Shown: positions 2,558 through 17,406 of the stretch, one piece after another
Numbering within the stretch: the stretch's first letter is position 1
How the letters are laid out: every line of letters starts with the position of its first letter
Assembly: GCF_937770335.1 (NCBI RefSeq)
Contig: NZ_CALJHY010000014.1
Coordinates: forward strand, 40,803-104,802
From: an uncultured Glaciecola sp.
GTDB lineage: Bacteria > Pseudomonadota > Gammaproteobacteria > Enterobacterales > Alteromonadaceae
Direction: 5' to 3'
DNA: 64,000 bases
Program-made: the position numbers and the translations under genes
The notes under the pieces: model-generated
What the model saw: the letters and a program-made list of their open reading frames with translations, nothing else
What the model was told of the DNA's origin: nothing
The model's database searches: none

Positions 2558-2702
2558 AGCACCATTTATACGTCTAAAATAACCCATAACAATCCGCCAA
2601 ACCCCTTTAAAATAAAGACCTATAGCATTAAACTTGTCTAAACCAATCTAATACTATACAATGTTATCTATATTTTTATGGCTGGTATTAAGGCGGGCCA
2701 AA

Positions 2703-3926
2703 ATGCCCAAGAAAGCGAAAGAGTTAACGGATAAAGCAGTTAGTGCGTTGGTCAGTGCAAAGAGGGCAGGCGTTTTTAGTGTTGGTAGAGTTGCAGGATT
2801 GTCAATTCAAATACGCCCGCCTGAATCGGCAAGTTGGATTTTGCGGACTGTTATTAAAGACAAGCGCAAATGGATAGGACTTGGCGGTTATCCCGAAGTA
2901 TCGTTAAAAACGGCTAGGATTGAAGCTGATGAACTGAAGCGCAAGATTAAAAGAGAAGGTTTCGACCCGGTTGAGCATCGAAAACAGTCACGTTCGATTG
3001 CTAAAGAAGAGCAGTTAAAATTATTTACCTTTAAGCAACTTGCTAACGAGTATGTTGAAAAGCGTTCTCAAGAATTTAAAACCCAACAACAAGTAAGAAA
3101 GCTCAATAATATTTTTGCAAATTATGCTTATCCCATTATTGGCAATTTACTAATAAATGACATTAACCTGAATACCATCAAGTCAATGCTAGACCCAATA
3201 TGGTCAACAAAGACTGAAACAGCAAACCGATTGCGGATCTATGTTGTTCACGTATTTGATATGGCAATTGCCCGAGGGATTTATTCTGAACTAAACCCCG
3301 CGCGTTGGGATGGTGGATTAAAGACTTTACTACCCGCACCACGCAAGATAAGTAAAACAAACCATTATAAGACATTGGATGTCGAGCTAATGCCAGAGTT
3401 TTGGGCGAAATTAATCAAACAAGAATGGCAAGGAGCTAAGGTTTTACAATTGGGTATATTAACTGCAGCACGTTCTTCTGAAATGCGCGGTGCTTTGTGG
3501 ACTGAAGTGGACTTCAAAAATAAAGTTTGGCATATACCTTCTGAACGTATGAAAGGACAAAACCCCAAAGACCATAATGTTCCACTGAGTAATGAAGCGA
3601 TCTCGTTACTCGAATCAATGCCAAAAATATCGAAGTATATATTTCCAAACACAAAAGATGGTGTTTTAACCGATGCTACGATATCCAAAGTGCCCAAGCG
3701 CATTGGCTACGATGTAACTGCACATGGATTCAGAACCACATTTAAGGATTGGGCACGGCAATATGTGAAGTTTTCACATAACCCATACGACGACGATTTA
3801 ACCGAACTTGCTTTATCTCATGTTAGTAGCGATAGCACGCGCTCAGCATATGCACGTAATGAGCTGTTAGACGAGCGCAGACCGCTAATGGAAGAATGGG
3901 CTAACTTTTGTAGTAAGGGAGAGTGA
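2703..3926 (+). CDS. int: P4-type tyrosine recombinase (island integrase)
   Basis: 407 residues from the ATG at 2703, preceded by AAGGCGGG; the track's longer start at 2661 adds an unlikely hydrophobic leader. The N-terminal arm-binding DUF4102-like domain (LTDKAVSAL..RVAGLSIQIRP, about 5-90) precedes a core-binding domain and the catalytic domain. The catalytic residues can be read: Arg in LTAARSSEMRGALW, His-x-x-Arg in HGFRTTFKDWA, and His...Tyr in LSHVSSDSTRSAYAR near the C-terminus. This family integrates elements into tRNA 3' ends, which matches the adjacent tRNA-Phe att copy. The stop codon overlaps the next start (TGATG), so the downstream gene is probably translationally coupled. Confidence 0.93.
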   Translation: MPKKAKELTDKAVSALVSAKRAGVFSVGRVAGLSIQIRPPESASWILRTVIKDKRKWIGLGGYPEVSLKTARIEADELKRKIKREGFDPVEHRKQSRSIAKEEQLKLFTFKQLANEYVEKRSQEFKTQQQVRKLNNIFANYAYPIIGNLLINDINLNTIKSMLDPIWSTKTETANRLRIYVVHVFDMAIARGIYSELNPARWDGGLKTLLPAPRKISKTNHYKTLDVELMPEFWAKLIKQEWQGAKVLQLGILTAARSSEMRGALWTEVDFKNKVWHIPSERMKGQNPKDHNVPLSNEAISLLESMPKISKYIFPNTKDGVLTDATISKVPKRIGYDVTAHGFRTTFKDWARQYVKFSHNPYDDDLTELALSHVSSDSTRSAYARNELLDERRPLMEEWANFCSKGE

Positions 3927-4426
3927 TGGATCTTGATGAACTGAAACATTTAGATGAAGCAGCTGAACAACTTGCTAAAGATTGGGGGAATCTTGATCTA
4001 GAGCAGGAGCTACAGCTTGCAAAAATACTATTAGAGGCTTCTGACAAGCTTCCAGTAACACCAGTAGGGGCAATACTTTTAGCTTGTTCCAATGAGTTAT
4101 ATTCAAATAAAAAACTCTTTCCAATCTTATCTGAACTTAGGCCAGAAAAAAGTAAGTCTACAAAAGGCCGCAAAAAAAAACATGAACCTAGTAAGTATCT
4201 TTATTTTTTCTTTAGAAGTGGTAGAAACGTCAGTGAAACAGCAAGGTTATTAGATGTAGGTAAAAAGACTGTTAGAGATAACCTGCCTCGCTATGCTGAA
4301 TTTAAGTACGGTTTGTACAATGGGAACGATAAAAGCGATTTGCCAATGAGTTTCGTTGATGAATTTATCCGTCTAGATAAAGATGATTTTGAGGAAGATT
4401 ACTTAGAAGCTTTTACGAAAGACTAA
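3926..4426 (+). CDS. Integrase-coupled hypothetical protein with C-terminal HTH-like segment
   Basis: 166 residues from the ATG at 3926, overlapping the integrase stop by one base (TGATG) and therefore co-translated with it; GGGAG upstream serves as ribosome binding site. The N-terminal 60 residues are acidic and helical. A basic linker (KSTKGRKKKHE) leads to NVSETARLLDVGKKTVRDNLPRY, which reads like a helix-turn-helix as in resolvase/homeodomain-like folds. The tail is acidic. I do not recognise the family. The tight coupling suggests a partner of the integrase, such as a directionality or copy-control factor, but this is inference. Confidence 0.7.
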   Translation: MDLDELKHLDEAAEQLAKDWGNLDLEQELQLAKILLEASDKLPVTPVGAILLACSNELYSNKKLFPILSELRPEKSKSTKGRKKKHEPSKYLYFFFRSGRNVSETARLLDVGKKTVRDNLPRYAEFKYGLYNGNDKSDLPMSFVDEFIRLDKDDFEEDYLEAFTKD

Positions 4427-4567
4427 GCAAAACATAAAATTTTGCATGGGGGAAATTAAAAACTAAAAAGCCCCAATTTTAAAACGTTTTTTCGTCCCCT
4501 AATATAATGGTGCGATGCTATTCAATGCACTGCAAATCCATTTATTTAGACGAAGAGGCTCAAGAAA

Positions 4568-4741
4568 ATGCATTATTTATCAGTAAAATCACTAGCAAAC
4601 CGCTACGACATTGCCATATCAACAGTATGGCTTCGCCTTAAGCAAGGCAAGCTCCCCCAACCCATAAAACTGCACGGAACTTCAACTCGCTGGAAATTAG
4701 ACGATCTCGAAAAATGGGAGCAGCAATCTAATGAAAAATAA
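4568..4741 (+). CDS. AlpA-like small DNA-binding regulator
   Basis: 57-residue ORF below the ORF-track cutoff: MHYLSVKSLANRYDIAISTVW... to ...WEQQSNEK. The layout (LSVKSLANRYDIAISTVWLRLKQGKLPQPIKL...RWKLDDLEKWE) is that of AlpA/MerR-like HTH proteins of P4-type elements. There the recognition helix is followed by a G-x-(F/L)-P-x-P turn and a C-terminal D-L-xx-W. In P4-like islands AlpA regulates integrase or excision. The gene overlaps the next ORF by 11 bases and leads the replication gene set, which suggests it controls this operon or excision. Confidence 0.8.
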   Translation: MHYLSVKSLANRYDIAISTVWLRLKQGKLPQPIKLHGTSTRWKLDDLEKWEQQSNEK

Positions 4742-4916
4742 ACCCTCTAAACAGCGAGAACAGAACAAAAGAGCCGAAGTTCAACTGCCGCTTAATCTAG
4801 CCTGCAAAAGGACTAGTGTAAGCCAGTCTTGCTCATTAAGTGCATTAGAAAATATAAAGAGAATTATTAAAAAACCTGTGACGACGAGGGGATCTAATTG
4901 TGATAAACAAAAATAA
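4731..4916 (+). CDS. Small basic hypothetical protein in replication operon
   Basis: 61 residues, very basic (KNKPSKQREQNKRAEVQLPLNLACKR...), overlapping AlpA upstream (ATG inside its last codons) and the primase-like gene downstream by 17 bases. The dense packing argues that it is translated. No recognisable domain; it may bind nucleic acid, judging only by charge. Confidence 0.5.
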   Translation: MKNKPSKQREQNKRAEVQLPLNLACKRTSVSQSCSLSALENIKRIIKKPVTTRGSNCDKQK

Positions 4917-5961
4917 TAAAGCCGTTGCTGCAAACAACGGCCATATAAATATTGTCCAAGGACAACTGATTAACGAAATTAATGATACTAAATCTAACGG
5001 CAAATTGACAACTAATAGTGTGATCAGTGGCGTTGGTCAATATCACACAGATAAGAACGGCTATGTTTACGATACAGTCAGTTACGCTGACATCAAAAGC
5101 ATGGCTCATAACCCTGAGGTGGTGCCAAAATCGCAAGCACGTTGGGTTATCCCAAGTTCATTTGAAAGCCGGTCTCATGGCTTACAGAAGCAGCGAGGCA
5201 ACTTCAAGCTACTTTGGGTTGATATTGATAAGAACGATGTTGGCTTTTACGATGTAGTCACAATTGCCAGAAATATCGTAGATGCTAGATTTGTTGCCTA
5301 TACAACAAAAACCGCTACCGTTGAAAATGAAAAAATGCGGATCATTATTCCATTAGAGAAAGCGATCAATGGTTTTCTATTTAAGTTTTGCCAAGAGGTA
5401 CTGATAAACAAGTTTGCTGAAAAAGGTATAGAGTGCGACCTGACTTCTAAACGCACCGCGCAGCTTTGTTACTTGCCAAATAAAGGTGATAACTATCGGT
5501 ACCATATTCAGGGCGGCAAGCGTTTTGATCATTACGGTTGGCTTAGTTCATTGTCTGTAGTTTTCGCACAGAAACTAAAATTTAAAGAGGAATTAGGAGC
5601 ACGAAGAAAAGCGGCTTTAGAGAAGCGATTGCGGTTTGCTAATAATCCAAATCAGAGTCCAATCGATTTATTTAATTCCCAAGCTGATATTGAACTTCTA
5701 TTGCTGCGATATAATTATTTGCAAATTGGATCTCGATGGTTAAGTCCAAACAGCAGTTCAAAAAGCCCAGGCGTTAGTATCAAGGATGACCGTTGGATTT
5801 CTTCTCATGCTTCAGACAAAGAGATCGGCTTAAAGCTGGATTCAGGTTCGTGCGGTGATGCCTTCGACCTGTTTTGCTATTACGAGCACCACAATGATAA
5901 GCAACGCGCAATCAATGCCATTAAACAGCAAATAAAGGATTGTGGAGGTGCTTATGAATGA
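4900..5961 (+). CDS. Primase-polymerase-like replication protein
   Basis: 353 residues, starting at GTG 4900 behind GAGGGG. Features consistent with the archaeo-eukaryotic primase (AEP) fold of element replication proteins: an acidic metal-site-like motif KLLWVDIDKND (about residues 105-115), then a basic/aromatic strand MRIIIPLEK, then CDLTSKRTAQLCYLPNKG (about 180-197), typical of RepB'/PrimPol-type relatives. The C-terminal region (RWLSPNSSSKSPGVSI...CGDAFDLFCYYEH) resembles the domain that often follows primase cores. It overlaps the RecA-like ATPase gene (ATGAATGA), so primase and ATPase/helicase form one replication operon. The AEP assignment rests on motif reading only. Confidence 0.65.
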   Translation: MINKNNKAVAANNGHINIVQGQLINEINDTKSNGKLTTNSVISGVGQYHTDKNGYVYDTVSYADIKSMAHNPEVVPKSQARWVIPSSFESRSHGLQKQRGNFKLLWVDIDKNDVGFYDVVTIARNIVDARFVAYTTKTATVENEKMRIIIPLEKAINGFLFKFCQEVLINKFAEKGIECDLTSKRTAQLCYLPNKGDNYRYHIQGGKRFDHYGWLSSLSVVFAQKLKFKEELGARRKAALEKRLRFANNPNQSPIDLFNSQADIELLLLRYNYLQIGSRWLSPNSSSKSPGVSIKDDRWISSHASDKEIGLKLDSGSCGDAFDLFCYYEHHNDKQRAINAIKQQIKDCGGAYE

Positions 5962-7012
5962 CAAAAAGCAGCCTTTCAATTTAGAGCAATTTTCGTTGCG
6001 AGGCAGGTCAGCGGACATGAAGAAAACTCTATCTAACCAACACTTTGTTTGGGTTGATATTGCAATAGCTGGCCAATCTACCGCCATTTATGCACAACCG
6101 AACTCAGGTAAAACCCTGCTTTCAATGCATCTTGTTTGCGAGGCAGTTAGAAAGAAACTAATTGAAGGTGAACAGGTTTTTTATATCAATGCAGATGACA
6201 CTGCAAAAGGATTGACGGAAAAAACTGAAATATTGGAGCGCTTTGATATACACCAAATTTCACCGCATGACCCAACACGGAAAACCGAGTTTAAAGCTAA
6301 TGACTTTGGCTTATATTTGCAGCAACTTTGTGCCGAAGGAAGTGCTAAAGGTAAGATCATAATATTAGACACATTGAAGAAATTTACCAAGCTAATGGAA
6401 AAGCAACAGGTGTCCGAATTCAATACCGTCATTAGGCAATTTATATCGCATGGCGGCACGTTGATTGCCCTAGCGCACGTAAATAAGTATAAGGACGAGG
6501 AAGGCAACTCTATTGCAGAGGGTACTAGTGACGTTATAAATGATTGGGATTGCGTTTATATTTTAGAGCAAGTCACTGACAACGGCTGCCTCAAAACAGT
6601 GGAGTTTCGCAACCAAAAAAACAGAGGTAATAACGCCAAGTCTGTATCGTTTAGCTATTCGATAGATGATGACTATCAAGCCATGCTGAGGTCAGTCAAA
6701 CGCCTTACAAATGAGGATCATTCCCAAGCAAAAATGACCGGCGCATTGCAAAAATCATTGAGTAAAAACAATGACATTATTGTAGCAATTCAGCAAAACA
6801 TTATGAGCCAGACTACGAATAGAACGGAACTGGTAACGGCTTCATATTTAGAGGTCAAGGATCTAGGTTATTCTAAATCACAAGTAAGGAATACACTTGA
6901 CGACCATGAAGGCAGAAATTATGAGTTGGGCCATAGATGGAAAAGTAAAAAAGGTGATAAGAACGCACAAATTTATACTTTATTGCACCCACCCACCCCC
7001 TTGAAAAACTGA
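5954..7012 (+). CDS. RecA-like replicative ATPase (RepA/AAA_25 type)
   Basis: 352 residues from ATG 5954, with GGAGGTG 4 bases upstream; the track's GTG at 5942 is less likely. Walker A is YAQPNSGKTLLS (about residues 47-58) and Walker B is KIIILDTLKK (about 138-147). A further RecA-family segment, GGTLIALAHVNKYKDEEGNS, resembles RepA of RSF1010-like replicons and AAA_25 ATPases. The C-terminal third (SQTTNRTELVTASYLEVKDLGYSKSQVRNTL) looks like a winged-helix DNA-binding domain. It is translationally coupled to the primase-like gene, and together they would allow autonomous replication of the excised island. The last codons before the stop are proline-rich (HPPTPLKN). Confidence 0.8.
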   Translation: MNDKKQPFNLEQFSLRGRSADMKKTLSNQHFVWVDIAIAGQSTAIYAQPNSGKTLLSMHLVCEAVRKKLIEGEQVFYINADDTAKGLTEKTEILERFDIHQISPHDPTRKTEFKANDFGLYLQQLCAEGSAKGKIIILDTLKKFTKLMEKQQVSEFNTVIRQFISHGGTLIALAHVNKYKDEEGNSIAEGTSDVINDWDCVYILEQVTDNGCLKTVEFRNQKNRGNNAKSVSFSYSIDDDYQAMLRSVKRLTNEDHSQAKMTGALQKSLSKNNDIIVAIQQNIMSQTTNRTELVTASYLEVKDLGYSKSQVRNTLDDHEGRNYELGHRWKSKKGDKNAQIYTLLHPPTPLKN

Positions 7013-7240
7013 AAAGTTTGAAAAACAGGAAAACTGAATAAAAGAATGGCGTGTTTGTTGAAAAACACAATCAGTTTAATGTAGTTATAACCCTTATGTA
7101 TATTGAGCTTAACAAGTTTTTCAATGCATAGAGAGTGAGGTATATAAAAACTGGTCCGAAATACAGTTGTTCAATTAATGCCAGTCTATATCATTGCATA
7201 ATCTTTCGGTTATAACGTATTGCAATGATCGCTTGATACT

Positions 7241-7267
7241 CGCCCTGACATTATGTCGGGGCGTTTT
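7241..7267 (+). terminator. Rho-independent terminator
   Basis: Stem CGCCCTGACA / TGTCGGGGCG (10 bp, one G-T pair), loop TTA, then TTTTT. Plus-strand orientation. It lies 230 bp downstream of the RecA-like ATPase gene, so it either ends that operon or ends an unseen small transcript starting in 7013-7240. Confidence 0.8.
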
Positions 7268-7970
7268 TATGCGCCTTCGACAATAAAAAATCACCCTTTT
7301 AATATCTAATAGACCGTTATGGGCAGATTGCAGACCTAGCAATTTCCGGTAAATCAATCTCGTTTAAGCGAGTTTTGGTAATCCAACCTTGCTGAGTCGA
7401 AAGGCTGCTTTGCCCAAGAAAGCGGTCGTAGCGATTTTTTGTGGTTTAGTCCCCTTTGAGTGAACCAGTCATACGATTAATTTGTGGTGAAGATCGCCAT
7501 TACTGATTTAGAGAACAGTCGAAACATTAAGTAGAAATAATGAGTTTTCCAAGAGAGGATGTTCACACTAGCTTGCTATTCAATTTCATCAAAAGGAAAG
7601 AAGATACTGGCTAAATCATAAAACTGTGGCCAATATCACATGAGTACTACAAAGGCTGTGTTCAGGATCACAGCGAACATTCTTAGTGTTATTTATAGTG
7701 ATTGTTGTCGATCTTCTGCGTATGGCCAAAAAACGATTGCTTCTGTTGAGTGAAAACATTCCAAGATCCCTTTGAGTACTGCTGCGAGATCAACACCTCT
7801 TATTTCTGAATCTAATAGAAGGCTTCTTCAAAGTCAGGATTGATCCTTGTATTGGTTTTAGCCCCTTGAGGATAGTGTAATTGGAAGTATAGAGTATGGA
7901 TCACTTCTAGGCTGGATACATAAAATCAATAACATCATGGTGTACTAGCTAAGCTTAATTGGCAGAAATA

Positions 7971-7998
7971 AAAAAACACTGATTAATCAGTGTTTTTT
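7971..7998. terminator. Bidirectional terminator
   Basis: AAAAAACACTGAT / ATCAGTGTTTTTT palindrome just downstream of the minus-strand VOC gene. The T-tract on either strand makes it usable in both directions; its natural client is the VOC-family gene ending at 8015. Confidence 0.8.
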
Positions 7999-8014
7999 AA
8001 AGACTCAGTTACAT

Positions 8015-8398
8015 TTAAGCTTCTTTAAAGCAGTAAACCGCTAATTTGTTACCGTCAGGGTCGCGAGTATAGGCTGCATATGCATTTGGTGCCCAATCGC
8101 GAGTTCCGGGTGCGCCTTCATCTGGACATCCAGCACCCAAGGCCGCAGCATGAAAAGCGTCGATAGCAGCACGGTTAGGTGCTTCAAAACTGACCGTAAC
8201 GCCGTTGCCAATACTAGCTGGTTGACCGTTCGCTGGCTTTAAAACAAAAAATGATGGTGCGTCTACGCCCCAAATAGAGCCGTTTTCATCTAAATCGGCA
8301 ATGCGTTTAAGGCCAAGCGTACTCAAAACATTATCGTAGAAGGCGCGTGATTTAGTTAAGTTGTTAGTACCGACAGTTACATGAGTAAAAATGCTCAT
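8015..8398 (-). CDS. VOC-family (glyoxalase-like) protein
   Basis: 127 residues with the single-unit vicinal-oxygen-chelate layout: N-terminal FTHVTVGTNNLTKSRAFYDNVLSTLGL, central SFEAPNRAAIDAFHAAALGAGCPDEGAPGTR, and C-terminal YAAYTRDPDGNKLAVYCF. Likely metal-binding positions are the His near residue 6 and the acidic residue of the last strand is replaced by a hydrophobic stretch, so catalytic competence is uncertain. Such small VOC proteins (often called lactoylglutathione-lyase-like) may act on glutathione adducts. That would fit the adjacent glutathione-dependent formaldehyde genes, but the substrate is not determined. Terminator follows at 7971-7998. Confidence 0.85.
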   Translation of the reverse strand: MSIFTHVTVGTNNLTKSRAFYDNVLSTLGLKRIADLDENGSIWGVDAPSFFVLKPANGQPASIGNGVTVSFEAPNRAAIDAFHAAALGAGCPDEGAPGTRDWAPNAYAAYTRDPDGNKLAVYCFKEA

Positions 8399-8675
8399 AA
8401 TTGTTCTCCATTAATTAAGATTAAATATTCGATTATCAATGTATAGCGTTATTGCTAATGAGTGATTCGATGGGAAGTATCTTACATTTATTCCAAATAT
8501 TGATAATCCCATGAAATGTAAAATAACTATTTCTGAGTGGTAACAATGTGATGAATAAATTGAAATATCTGGAAATGAAAGGGAAATTAAAAACGCCATT
8601 GAAATGAGCGCTTATAAAGCTCCCCATTTCTGCTAGCAAACGACTCAGTTTTTTGCGGCTTGTCGCATCGAAAGG

Positions 8676-9545
8676 TTAGACTAATTGCTCAGCCAAATAA
8701 TCTACTAACAATCTTATTTTGGGTGATAGGTGGCGGTTATGGGGATATATCGCCCAAATACCCTCGTCAGGTTCGCGATAAGTATCAAGTAAGGTGATCA
8801 GTTCTCCACTTAGCAGATGCTCTTGCACATAATAATCGGGTAATTGCACTATGCCCAAGCCTTTCAACGCTGCATCAACCAGCCCAAAACCACTGTTATA
8901 GCGGAGTTTTCCCGTTACCCGAATGTTCTTTTCTTTGTCTGATTCCCTAAAATGCCAATAATCCAAGGTCCCCAGCAGGCAACTGTGTGAATTAAGCTCT
9001 GACAAGGAATGCGGTATACCATGTTTGTCCAAGTAAGCGGGTGATGCACACACATAGTTTGTGCGCTTTCCTAGTTTTTTCGCCATCATAGAAGAATCAA
9101 TTAACTTACCAAGGCGAATGGCTAAATCATATCCACCCTCAACTAAGTCCACTTGTTGATTGCTTAAAAATGCAGTTACTTCTACGTCACTGTATTGCTG
9201 CATAAAATTATTCACCAGCGGCAATATTTGCTGTTCACCATAAGTTACTGGCGCGGACAGTTTGACTTTGCCTTGGGGTTTCGATTGCAAATTTGTAATG
9301 GCTCTTTCGCCGGCCTCTAATCCATCCAGTACGCCGCGGCAGTGTTGATAAAAAACCCGACCTTCTTCAGTTAAAGATACCTTACGCGTAGTACGATAAA
9401 ACAATTTCACATTGAGTCGTTTCTCTAATGCGCTTATCTGACGGCTTACCTGAGCAGTAGAAATAGCCATTTTTATTGCAGCCTGAGTAAAGCTTTCATT
9501 CTCGGCGACGTAGACAAATTCGCTAATACCATCCCACTGCATCAT
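8676..9545 (-). CDS. LysR-family regulator divergent from formaldehyde operon
   Basis: 289 residues. The N-terminal winged HTH FVYVAENESFTQAAIKMAISTAQVSRQISALEKRLNVKLFYRTTRKVSLTEEG (about 8-65) is canonical LysR, followed by the periplasmic-binding-protein-like effector domain. It is transcribed away from the SMR/frmA/frmB genes across a 179-bp shared promoter region. This is the usual position for a LysR activator of the neighbouring operon, so control by formaldehyde or S-hydroxymethylglutathione is plausible but inferred. Confidence 0.9.
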   Translation of the reverse strand: MMQWDGISEFVYVAENESFTQAAIKMAISTAQVSRQISALEKRLNVKLFYRTTRKVSLTEEGRVFYQHCRGVLDGLEAGERAITNLQSKPQGKVKLSAPVTYGEQQILPLVNNFMQQYSDVEVTAFLSNQQVDLVEGGYDLAIRLGKLIDSSMMAKKLGKRTNYVCASPAYLDKHGIPHSLSELNSHSCLLGTLDYWHFRESDKEKNIRVTGKLRYNSGFGLVDAALKGLGIVQLPDYYVQEHLLSGELITLLDTYREPDEGIWAIYPHNRHLSPKIRLLVDYLAEQLV

Positions 9546-9724
9546 TGTTACCTATATGTAAAAGACATTTCACAAATTAGCATATTATCATTTATTTCGG
9601 AACAACTATAATACCTGCCATAACGTAAAGCTGCTGCGAACTAACAAGTGCTAAGTAAAGCCCTTCAGTCAACAAGTCGTTTACTTCATTACCAATACGC
9701 TACGTAACAATATAGGAAGCAAAT

Positions 9725-10051
9725 ATGAGTTGGTTATTTCTGTTTTTAGGTGTTGCCGCTGAAGCCATGTCGCACGTTGCATTGAAAGAGACTGATGGTT
9801 TTTCCAAGCCACTGCCAAGTATTTTGGTACTGCTCGGACATTTAGCGGCCTTTATGTTTTTAGGGCAAGCCATGAAAGACATGCCGGTTGGAATAGTGCA
9901 TGCCCTTTGGGCAGGACTCGCGATTATCACAGTAACCTTATTGTCTACCGTCATTTATCGTCAACACCTTGACTTAACCACATGGTTTGGCATGGCGTTT
10001 GTGGCAGTCGGTATTGCCATGATTAACCTGTCACAAGGTCATGCTCATTAG
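9725..10051 (+). CDS. Small multidrug resistance (SMR)-type membrane protein
   Basis: 108 residues with four predicted membrane helices, the size and pattern of SMR/DMT transporters. The conserved acidic residue of helix 1 is present (LFLGVAAEAMSHVALK), at the position equivalent to Glu14 of EmrE. First gene of the operon with frmA; 58 bp separate its stop from the frmA start. Similar SMR genes accompany adhC-type dehydrogenases in other gammaproteobacteria, perhaps exporting a toxic intermediate; the substrate here is unknown. RBS AGGAAG at about 9715. Confidence 0.85.
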   Translation: MSWLFLFLGVAAEAMSHVALKETDGFSKPLPSILVLLGHLAAFMFLGQAMKDMPVGIVHALWAGLAIITVTLLSTVIYRQHLDLTTWFGMAFVAVGIAMINLSQGHAH

Positions 10052-10079
10052 CCCAACTGCAAACAACTTAATCATTTAA

Positions 10080-11240
<1,161 letters not shown>

Positions 11241-13937: not shown

Positions 13938-14536
13938 GTTAATCGCTTCTGGCTCAAATGACCTTAACAGTAAGAAACATTACTTTTCACTTACATTACT
14001 ACTTAAGAGCTCGTTTAGCCGTTCTTGACTTCAATAAAACGGGCACTACATTTAGTATTGTCGTTTGGCTAATTCAACTGCGATCTGGAAAATTGGGCTA
14101 AATCTCAAAAGTACCAATTTTATTTTTTAAGTCATTGTTAAAGAAATACGCTGTAACCAAAATTCAGTTCAAGTAAAGTTCAATCCATATCTAGCAGGGC
14201 TAGTTTCTATTTCGAGCCAATTAGAATTGAAATGCCTGGCAGTCAGATTACGTTCGTAGTTTTACAATGGTTTAAAATTTGACTGACGGCTGAACCCTCA
14301 TATTTTAAGGTTGATTGATGACAATCTTTGACCGTCTCCTACCTTCTATAACGCTCGACTGTCCGGTTTTAGGCTCAGAGCTGCCTGTCACTTTGGCTCA
14401 CCTCGGCAAGCGCTGATAACACAAAATTCTCACTCAATTTTGAACGGCGTGCGGCCCCTTTTGCCGTGGTCCTGTCCTAGAAAAAAAGGCGATTCAGGCG
14501 TTTTAAAGCGTTAACCATTTTTCGCGCATAGTTAAT
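13938..14536. other. 600-bp region without a recognisable gene
   Basis: Convergent region between the DksA-type gene and the TPR lipoprotein gene. No ORF, RNA gene or clean terminator is evident. It may hold decayed sequence from an earlier insertion. Confidence 0.4.
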
Positions 14537-15220: not shown

Positions 15221-15767
15221 AAATACCCTCTAGGTGGTTAACAACTTATTATGAAGACTTCATAACAACGGGATACTGTCATTTTATAAACTCTTCATAC
15301 TTTATCATTTTCAGTACATTACCAACCTATTGATAATAATTGCCACCACTTTTTATACGATTACTATAACAACATAGTGGCAACAGGGTCCAAAACCGTT
15401 CTAAACATGAGGATTAGCTGGCCTAACTGCTTATCTTTAAGCTTATTGAATGTAGATAACTTAAAAGGGGAATTCAAAGAATGTCCGCTTTTATGCTTAC
15501 GGGGCTTATTTTGATGTCAAAAGGTTCTCAAAACTCCACATGTTAAATTCTTTTCCAAATCCCTCCAATAATATTCTGCGACTGTCTGCAATTGCCGTAT
15601 TCAAGCCCGTTATGATTTGACAAAATATACAATATGATGATCTTACCTAATCAGGCAAAAAAGGGCAGTTTGCAGACTGTAAGGATTTTTTTGCACTACG
15701 ACGGCTTACAGCGATCAGTTGTCATTGGGGATATTCGGTTTCTGATAGGGCTACGCTCTATAGCAGA
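15221..15767. other. Non-coding stretch next to the gene cassette
   Basis: About 550 bases, no supported gene. The plus-strand 60-codon ORF at 15634-15816 runs into the attC site and is unlikely to be real. The part nearest the cassette (…AGCAGACATTAACGCC…) is the presumed insertion target of the cassette. Confidence 0.4.
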
Positions 15768-15858
15768 CATTAACGCCTCAATAACCGGCAGCGTTGTGGC
15801 GAAGCCACGCTTCTAGCTGACCGGCGCCGAAGGCGCGTAGTTAATTGGCTTGTTATAC
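15768..15858 (-). other. attC recombination site (59-base-element type)
   Basis: 91-bp imperfect palindrome on the minus strand, beginning with inverse core GTATAAC at 15858-15852 and ending with core GTTAATG at 15774-15768. Arms TAACAAGCCAATTAA and TTATTGAGGCGTTA pair. GGTCAGC against GCTGCC leaves an unpaired A, the kind of extrahelical base expected in attC. Two small internal hairpins (GCGCCTTCGGCGC and GTGGCTTCGCCAC) fill the centre. It starts 8 bp after the stop of the 15867-16724 gene, as integron cassettes do. The inverse core is the exact complement of the GTTATAC at the other end of the cassette. Confidence 0.85.
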
Positions 15859-15866
15859 GTTGCTCG

Positions 15867-16724
15867 CTATTTCAGCCATATTGTGTAATCAAGCTTTCCT
15901 AGATAATTTGAAATGTTTGCAATAGCGATAGCCTGGCCAACACTTGTTAATTCGACTCTAAAAAGATTTTCAGAATTGAACTGGTCTAAAACACTTCCAT
16001 ATGACGGTGCTTGTTGAGCGATGGCATCTTTAAAACTTGTACCTTCGGGTGGAGCAAGATACTTATAGGTCTCTTTTCCGAGCGCCTCGTATATGTCGCC
16101 GCCAACCAATTTGTTTATTGATGCGGCGCCAGCATATTGAATGTGTTGCCATTGAGACTGGGATAGTTCATAGCCGGGTCTACAAAATATTAGCGCTTGC
16201 CGGCCAAATGGTTCTAGCCCTCCTATATTTGGGAGGTTTTGAACTGCAACCGATTTCACAAAATGTACGAATGACAAAAGACCTATTTGCGAACGAGTCA
16301 ATCGTGGCACTACCTGTACCGCCTCAGAAAGAACAATGTCTTTGTAGTCATTTGTATTTCTAGCTACTCTTTCAGAAATTAGCGTAGAAAGAATTTCTGG
16401 GTTTGCAGCGTGGCCTTTACGTGCACTCGCCTGCACAGCATCGTTTATTGAAGCTTGTACATCTGGCTCTCGAAATTTTTCTAGAACGATTGAGGCAGCA
16501 TCTTTAGCGATGCGGTTCTCAAGCAAGTCTGCGAAGGTCTTCACATGCTGTTCTGCGGTGATTCTGGCATCTTCACGCAGTTGTGGGAAATTGTCACGCA
16601 AGACTAAGACACATATCTCTTTGACCTCAGCAACAGAGAGCCCATGATAGTTCACATCGCGACCCGCCTGAATCGCGGTTGATCCACCATCGGCTTGCTG
16701 ATCTTGTTTTTTATCACCGATCAT
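15867..16724 (-). CDS. Cassette protein with N-terminal IQAGRDV motif (LPO_1073/Vpar_1526-like)
   Basis: 285 residues from ATG 16724, overlapping the stop of the preceding gene by one base (TGATG) with GGTGA as RBS; the track's start adds a TTG. The N-terminus DKKQDQQADGGSTAIQAGRDVNYHG (motif GGSTAIQAGRDV at 13-24) is followed by a helical region: GLSVAEVKEICVLVLRDNFPQL, then ARITAEQHVKTFADLLENRI, then FREPDVQASINDAVQASAR. The rest shows no catalytic motif. The layout recalls proteins annotated as LPO_1073/Vpar_1526 family, whose function is unknown to me. No signal peptide: cytoplasmic. Partner is the upstream membrane protein, which repeats the motif. Confidence 0.75.
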   Translation of the reverse strand: MIGDKKQDQQADGGSTAIQAGRDVNYHGLSVAEVKEICVLVLRDNFPQLREDARITAEQHVKTFADLLENRIAKDAASIVLEKFREPDVQASINDAVQASARKGHAANPEILSTLISERVARNTNDYKDIVLSEAVQVVPRLTRSQIGLLSFVHFVKSVAVQNLPNIGGLEPFGRQALIFCRPGYELSQSQWQHIQYAGAASINKLVGGDIYEALGKETYKYLAPPEGTSFKDAIAQQAPSYGSVLDQFNSENLFRVELTSVGQAIAIANISNYLGKLDYTIWLK

Positions 16725-16963
16725 CAATCTTCACCTTTCTTGCTAACATGGACATCACGGCCAGCTTGAATACCTTGACTCCCACCTGAAATATTTTGAG
16801 TCTGGCTAGATTCTTCTGGCTTTTTCTTTATCAATAGAGATCCAAAAAATGCCGCCAAAGCAGCCGCAGTAGCTACGCCTGAATCAAAGCCAGGTGATAA
16901 TACAAGCCAAGTGCATGCCAATATAAAGGCCAGAAAAGCTATTAGTTTCACTATGAATATCAT
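16724..16963 (-). CDS. Small membrane protein with C-terminal IQAGRDV motif
   Basis: 79 residues. Two hydrophobic helices (about 3-23 and 28-46), then a positively charged KKK boundary and a hydrophilic tail, SSQTQNISGGSQGIQAGRDVHVSKKGED, probably cytoplasmic. GGSQGIQAGRDV (60-71) shares 10 of 12 positions with GGSTAIQAGRDV at the N-terminus of the next protein. First gene of the cassette: ATG 11 bases after the core hexamer, RBS AGAGG. A tail motif repeated at the head of its partner suggests homotypic contact that brings the soluble protein to the membrane or triggers the membrane protein. Confidence 0.75.
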   Translation of the reverse strand: MIFIVKLIAFLAFILACTWLVLSPGFDSGVATAAALAAFFGSLLIKKKPEESSQTQNISGGSQGIQAGRDVHVSKKGED

Positions 16964-16981
16964 GCTACCTCTTCGTATAAC

Positions 16982-17406
16982 ACTTATTATCGAGCATTTC
17001 GTGTATGCAATTACCCGATTTGATTTTAATCGCCATGAGTTTTAGCCCTTACCTTCTGATTTAATTGAGTATTTTTTACTCTGTTCACCACAAATTTACT
17101 TCATCCACAAAAAGTAAAAGGAGACCTGATTTTAACTCGACTTTTATGCTTCTTATTAAATAGGATGTGAAGAATATTTTCAATAGCTAAATTTTGACTC
17201 TGCAAGCTGATGTGCTTTACTCAGATTTTTGTTCAATACTTCCATTTGAATATCGTTTAGTGTCATTAGTGCTGCTCTTTTTTTGAGCAAACACAACAGC
17301 AGTGAACAGTAAGAAGATAATCTATTTTGTGATGGTTTCTAAGTAAATTTTGCGGAGTGTCTAATTTACTCTACTTTAGATATCTATGCCGAACATATCA
17401 TCAGTT
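16982..17406. other. Intergenic region upstream of the cassette
   Basis: About 425 bases between the cassette boundary and a small minus-strand gene. It must supply any promoter for the cassette genes, since cassettes are usually promoterless. No second attC is visible: the sequence before the core reads ATAATAAGT, not the GGC of an attC end. Confidence 0.4.

Follow-up and report, generated by a model that had tools for sequence, protein, structure and literature searches.

Introduction

The 2TM/SLATT-type effectors of CBASS, Thoeris-like and retron systems are short membrane-spanning proteins that lie beside a soluble sensor. Fungal and bacterial amyloid signalosomes consist of a membrane protein with a C-terminal motif and a soluble partner with an N-terminal motif, specified by adjacent genes (PMC7889193, PMC12261475), and in the BASS pairs the two are a Bell effector and an NLR receptor (Dyrka et al. 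2020, as reported in PMC7889193, PMC8086366 and PMC12261475). Reviewers of amyloid signalling have asked whether bacteria also possess signalling amyloids in NLR-independent pathways (PMC7889193).

Here we describe two adjacent genes within a 64,000-nucleotide stretch of DNA (the window) from an uncultured Glaciecola sp. (contig NZ_CALJHY010000014.1, positions 40,803 to 104,802). They specify a small membrane protein and a soluble protein of the LPO_1073/Vpar_1526 family, and both proteins carry the same motif. The pair is a compact and widespread natural candidate for NLR-independent amyloid signalling, and the version found in E. coli prophages is directly testable.

The cassette and its flanks

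Both genes lie on an integron cassette, the limits and surroundings of which are as follows.

15774..16980, minus strand: integron cassette holding both genes; R'' (GTATAAC) is complementary to the cassette start TTATAC
15768..15858, minus strand: attC recombination site, with R'' GTATAAC at 15858-15852 and R' G^TTAATG at 15774-15768
16976..17193, minus strand: upstream flank of 218 bp, attI-like; in relatives, the homologous copies stop at the same G^TTAT, with different cassettes beyond it
15705..15773, minus strand: downstream flank, TTAATGTCTGCTATAGAGC..., which follows different attC-like ends elsewhere in the genus

A preliminary description of this DNA, made by reading the letters and open reading frames, had proposed an attC-bounded cassette coding for a 79-residue two-helix membrane protein and, coupled to it by TGATG, a 285-residue protein. 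The cassette limits proved to be exact to the base, as the cassette start G^TTATAC (16981-16975) and R'' GTATAAC show perfect complementarity upon circularisation, and the lengths of the two reading frames, their overlap and the predicted helices also agree with what had been proposed. The TTAATG beyond the cassette belongs to the flank. The homologous cassettes L021, L023 and L024 show the same architecture of start and attC. Single-strand folding of the attC was no better than that of shuffles (z -0.29) and was dropped as a means of identification; because folding energy was uninformative, the attC call is based on the boxes and flanks. No sigma-70 site was found on the gene strand within the region, the content of which is compact and promoter-poor.

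No integron integrase adjoins the cassette, and the subset of the genome's tyrosine recombinases that was inspected held no intact-looking IntI. The flanks (218 bp upstream and about 86 bp downstream) recur in the genus around different cassettes with the same G^TT cut, and so behave like an attI site without an integrase; since they recur with other cassettes, the cassette in the window is taken to be solitary. That the flanking repeats might form an integron array was ruled out, as the genes on either side of them are unrelated. A search of 13 genomes of the genus gave no intact empty site.

Copies of this attI-like platform, also without an integrase, were seen at several loci across the genus (L044, L045, L047, L048 and L049, on contigs C40 and C12 of genome G946 and C87 of G950), the 218 bp upstream element ending in ...CTCGATAATAAG[TC]G and the downstream element starting with TTAATG[TC]C[TC]GCT. 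The window also holds short dispersed intergenic repeats at 15580-15670, 14412-14468 and 15239-15367, with several copies in its own genome (contigs C7, C12 and C16) and in the relative G946. Further away, at 2661-7012, lies a small integrative element with genes for a tyrosine integrase (421 aa), a regulator, a primase-like protein and a RecA-like/AAA ATPase, which, with its ORFs read by eye, resembles a phage satellite or small island.

The two encoded proteins

The two genes and the main domain of the longer product are given below.

16724..16963, minus strand: 79-aa membrane protein, the upstream gene; two hydrophobic helices followed by a C-terminal tail that is disordered and bears the motif
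15867..16724, minus strand: 285-aa protein of the LPO_1073/Vpar_1526 family (NF045477, E=1.1e-72; phrog_19542, E=9.8e-58)
15870..16634, minus strand: all-helical domain predicted by AF2 (residues 32-286), with a first helix of 44 residues

The start of the 285-aa protein is the ATG in TGATG, which gives a one-base overlap with the 79-aa gene, and the TTG start chosen by the ORF caller gives 286 aa. It matches NF045477 with 244.8 bits (curated cut-off 45) over positions 1-257 of 257, and so belongs to a family that is already named but functionally uncharacterised. No Pfam domain fits it, including no NLR domain. Its E. coli prophage version is phrog_19542, and that of the small protein is phrog_27656 (E=2e-11), both of unknown function. 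The small protein is without any Pfam, NCBIfam or PADLOC family, the small membrane partners of the other pairs likewise gave no Pfam domain, and matches of the small membrane partners to SLATT and Cap15 were insignificant. The preliminary description had known of no account of the pair, which stands in so far as a search confined to open-access papers found neither the pairing nor its motif described, and no functional paper on NF045477, phrog_19542 or phrog_27656, but the long protein is NF045477 and each of the two E. coli members has a PHROG family of its own.

The hydrophobic helices of the small protein are predicted at residues 2-22 and 26-43 by hydropathy and AF2, and its AF2 model is a two-helix hairpin with most of the C-tail below a pLDDT of 50. 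For the long protein, an AF2 run using 11 sequences gave a helical domain (residues 32-286) with pLDDT mostly 75-96 and a pTM of 0.78; no relatives of this fold were found in PDB or BFVD, and none in PDB by sequence. Residues 1-27, which include the motif, have a pLDDT below 50 and form a disordered tail in the model. The prediction thus places the motif outside the folded domain, on an unstructured tail, where low AF2 confidence signifies simply that the monomer has no fold there. The positions invariant in a broad alignment of the LPO_1073 protein are A, P, Q, G and L, and no catalytic-looking residue set is present among its widely conserved columns; the protein is probably non-enzymatic. 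In PADLOC-DB 2.0 only PDC-S47 was matched, with 19.8 bits across the motif-proximal residues 21-55. PDC-S47 was ruled out as the family of this protein, its strong members L051 and L052 having another domain and no motif.

Conservation and distribution of the pair

The pair was collected from genomes, plasmids and viral contigs, and 19 complete distinct loci, including that of the window, were obtained along with two fragments (L012 and L019) that are outside this count. At 19 of the 19 the membrane gene lies immediately upstream and its product carries the motif C-terminally, and the LPO_1073 protein has the motif at its N-terminus; one of these loci, L074, was discovered only after the motif had been defined. 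The upstream partners are 61-93 aa in length, have one or two TM helices, and their genes either overlap the LPO_1073 gene or lie within a few tens of bases of it. The LPO_1073 proteins of the pairs are 285-360 aa.

Hosts include Gammaproteobacteria, Betaproteobacteria, Chlorobi, Brocadiaceae and prophages. The family is rare, being present in 2/369 genomes of the class, 8/248 of the order and 3/399 of the phylum. A separate scan of genome contigs used a three-sequence alignment because the broad alignment A1 was too divergent, and is biased toward the subfamily of the window. Phage GenBank records gave no match to the pair. Close relatives (66-72% identity) occur in assemblies of Comamonadaceae, Chlorobiaceae and Brocadiaceae, which are metagenome bins with host assignment as deposited, and each has the GTTATACGTAGGA start and an attC, from which it follows that the cassette has moved between phyla. 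These attC cassettes thus place the pair in three lineages besides that of the window, which differ from one another in phylum or class.

A motif shared by both partners

The motif is about 21 residues long, with the consensus QxQxxxGxxSTxIQAGxDVxI (alternatively QxQxVxxxSTxIQAGxDVxx), and the Q of IQ is the single invariant position when the motifs of both partners are aligned. Its two copies in the window, located by alignment and motif profile, are the following.

16742..16804, minus strand: copy in the membrane protein, at residues 54-74, QTQNISGGSQGIQAGRDVHVS
16644..16706, minus strand: N-terminal copy in the LPO_1073 protein, QDQQADGGSTAIQAGRDVNYH

The shared stretch of 12 residues first noticed in these two proteins is real and extends further: the best local alignment of the window pair is the motif, spans 22 residues (ESSQTQNISGGSQGIQAGRDVH / DKKQDQQADGGSTAIQAGRDVN), and has a BLOSUM62 score of 60, where 300 shuffles of both proteins reached 43 at most. 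In each of the other pairs too, the best local alignment is the motif, always joining the C-tail of one partner to the N-tail of the other. The long sensors L013, L020 and L032, which have a 1-TM partner, carry a shortened motif (IQAQDI, LQGQQV, IQAEQV), and their partners keep the full GGN/GRN form, making these pairings asymmetric.

Given the Gly/Ser/Gln-rich composition of the motif, and its placement at adjacent ends of adjacent genes, it could be supposed that this is an ordinary hypothetical cassette, in which the motif is a low-complexity feature of the tails, or a remnant of gene splitting or duplication, and has no signalling meaning. Against this, at most a few of 300 shuffles score as well as the motif alignment in nearly every pair, the exception being L026 (63/300), and the codon usage, partner matching and genome-wide occurrence described below also speak against it, so that we regard it as very improbable.

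Matching of motifs and selection

At the 161 motif residues identical between partners, the same codon is used at 68, where 69.6 would be expected from codon usage. Agreement at the level of codon usage means that there has been no recent duplication of DNA, and that the likeness is kept by selection on the protein; an origin of the motif from a split gene or recent duplication was ruled out on these grounds. In other words, codons have been randomised while residues were retained.

The motifs also match by pair. Cognate motifs have a similarity of 39.3 and non-cognate motifs 25.7 (19 pairs), and the match persists when the shuffling of partners is restricted to within subfamilies (p=1e-4, 19 pairs). 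A partial Mantel test between the two motifs, with similarity of the sensor bodies removed, gave r=0.35 with 0/5000 permutations as high (18 pairs). By group, the signal was seen in the long-sensor pairs (p=0.003) and in a third group (p=0.04); in the cassette clade of the window itself the pair-specific match was not significant (p=0.15), because the motif there is too conserved to tell. One well supported clade of sensors (L032, L074 and L033, 51-59% identical) has a 1-TM partner in one case and 2-TM partners in the others, and within it the motif of the sensor switches along with the type of partner, indicating an exchange of effectors.

When a profile of the motif (21 residues) was run against 248 genomes of the order, strong matches all fell within the pairs, a result that is circular for those pairs used to build the profile and that misses divergent pairs such as L017. 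The weak matches checked outside the pairs were mostly filamentous-haemagglutinin proteins (PF13332). With no other convincing carriers in the 248 genomes, the idea of the motif as a widespread modular tag was rejected.

None of the three outcomes that the preliminary description had named as refuting it was seen, and its proposal of a membrane-effector/sensor module working by homotypic templating is supported in part: the two genes are conserved together at every complete distinct locus, both partners bear the motif in pair-matched form, and it is not buried in a globular fold, since the AF2 models leave both motif-bearing tails, for the most part, at low confidence.

Genomic neighbourhood and a possible role in defence

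In E. coli, the pair is found in 6/5426 genomes, within P2-like prophages or phage-plasmids, where it occupies precisely the interval that separates the replication gene from the portal gene, i.e., the P2 gpA-gpQ (old/tin) hotspot. According to the main text of Rousset et al. 2022 (PMC9122126), this and other prophage hotspots carry diverse anti-phage systems, and that text shows no test of the E. coli pair. The pair directly adjoins Hp1-Hp2-Hp3, which are defence proteins according to PADLOC. At locus L055 (E. coli H3), where the pair lies at 9047-10159 (WP_000687980 and WP_000490525), Hp1-Hp2-Hp3 occupies 5991-8741 in the same P2 hotspot, on the strand opposite to the pair, and may be the set of three genes for which PMC9122126 reports protection against P1. 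Elsewhere, the pair adjoins an intact ThsB-ThsA of Thoeris (L032, a viral contig), and a gene with an FRG domain that matches PDC-S15, a candidate for defence (L016). These neighbourhoods comprise few but independent loci (a single P2 lineage, Thoeris locus and FRG locus each), and provide circumstantial evidence, drawn from gene context, that the pair may be a phage-defence module.

Toxin-antitoxin modules are common integron cassettes. The small hydrophobic protein could be a membrane toxin, the tail of which is masked by the LPO_1073 protein for neutralisation, with the two serving as an addiction or exclusion module in the cassettes and prophages that carry them. The sizes, the small hydrophobic gene coming first, the overlap of the genes and the mobile contexts would all fit. 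A helical neutraliser of 285-360 aa is, however, large for an antitoxin, and it is unusual for antitoxins to bear the same motif as their partner; we consider this explanation unlikely.

Proposed mechanism

We judge the chances to be about even that the pair is a two-protein signalling module of sensor and membrane effector, coupled by the motif and acting in defence through cross-beta stacking and membrane damage. Since the arrangement of genes and motifs is like that of amyloid signalosomes, we propose that the LPO_1073 protein senses or relays infection, and that the small protein acts on the membrane. The former would be a soluble, helical sensor or adaptor with one beta-forming motif of about 21 residues on a flexible N-terminal tail, and the latter a membrane effector presenting that motif on a C-terminal tail that is flexible and cytoplasmic. 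The sensor would expose or cluster its tails in response to a trigger, probably phage infection, and the motifs would then pair homotypically, each chain contributing one beta-rung to a stacked cross-beta assembly. This assembly would recruit and cluster the membrane helices, leading to damage of the inner membrane, and the infected cell would be stopped.

The same conservation data would also fit a complex without amyloid, in which the LPO_1073 protein is held at the membrane through a small, defined hetero-oligomer (a beta-rung zipper) made by the shared motif, and is itself the real effector or an exclusion factor there, with no templating or polymerisation. The shortened motif of some sensors opposite a full motif in their partners would suit such an asymmetric, heterotypic contact, and Vpar_1526, one of the namesakes of the family, is listed in a membrane proteome of Veillonella parvula (PMC5491611). 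On the other hand, most pairs bear the whole motif on both tails, as homotypic stacking predicts, and dedicated hetero-contacts usually diverge to complementary rather than similar sequences. Such a tether seems to us rather unlikely.

In its most specific form, the interpretation of the pair as homotypic stacking would make it a non-NLR amyloid-signalling immune module, and the first bacterial pair of sensor and membrane effector outside NLR systems, in which the specificity of the wiring lies in a single homotypic beta-solenoid rung, spread occurs by integron cassettes and P2-like prophages, and types of effector are exchanged with the motif of the sensor following. We put this forward tentatively, and give it somewhat less than an even chance. 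If true, a role would be assigned to an uncharacterised family, integrons and P2 hotspots would gain a minimal module of about 1.2 kb for defence, and there would be a natural series of matched motifs with which the evolution of cross-beta specificity could be studied.

Comparison with known systems

The database entries NF045477, phrog_19542 and phrog_27656 provide a name or number only, and the pairing and shared motif are not stated there. Among described systems, the motif has a likeness to the repeats of filamentous haemagglutinins (PF13332), which are beta-solenoid adhesins: its second half, xxIQAGRDVxI, recalls repeats that contain nearly the same string, VAIQAGGDVNV being an example. 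In the pair there is a single copy on a predicted cytoplasmic tail, whereas a secreted adhesin has dozens, and the likeness is probably a convergence on a beta-rung. The haemagglutinin-like weak matches suggest that the motif could form one rung of a beta-solenoid, and, by analogy, the geometry of such a rung is suggestive of that which stacks into signalling amyloids of the HET-s or RHIM type.

RHIM itself (PF12721) was not matched by any of nine membrane partners at E<=10, nor by the LPO_1073 protein at E<=1, HMMER filters limiting the detection of very weak matches. From the ten BASS families, the comparison covered two published BASS3 or BASS3-like peptides, including the validated Frankia BASS3; the best profile match was 5.7 bits, and 36/2000 shuffles scored as well. 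Kinship with RHIM or BASS3 is weak.

The anatomy of the pair is nevertheless close to that of BASS. The genes are adjacent or overlapping, the motif is C-terminal in a small membrane-active protein and N-terminal in the protein paired with it, and the motifs are of about 21 residues, matched between partners, with a G[IV]Q[VA]G core resembling BASS3. Unlike BASS, the LPO_1073 protein is without an NLR (no NB-ARC or NACHT, and no repeat domain), there is no Bell domain as judged by size and anatomy, the membrane protein being a bare stub with one or two TM helices, and the hosts are Proteobacteria, Chlorobi and Brocadiaceae rather than filamentous actinobacteria and cyanobacteria. As there is no NLR, Bell or RHIM match, and the likeness to the Frankia BASS3 peptide is weak, the pair was not filed as BASS or RHIM. 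With the 2TM/SLATT-type systems it shares a short membrane protein adjoining a soluble partner, but it has no nucleotide cyclase, TIR, RT or ligand-binding domain, and coupling in this pair appears to be based on the motif carried by both proteins rather than on a second messenger.
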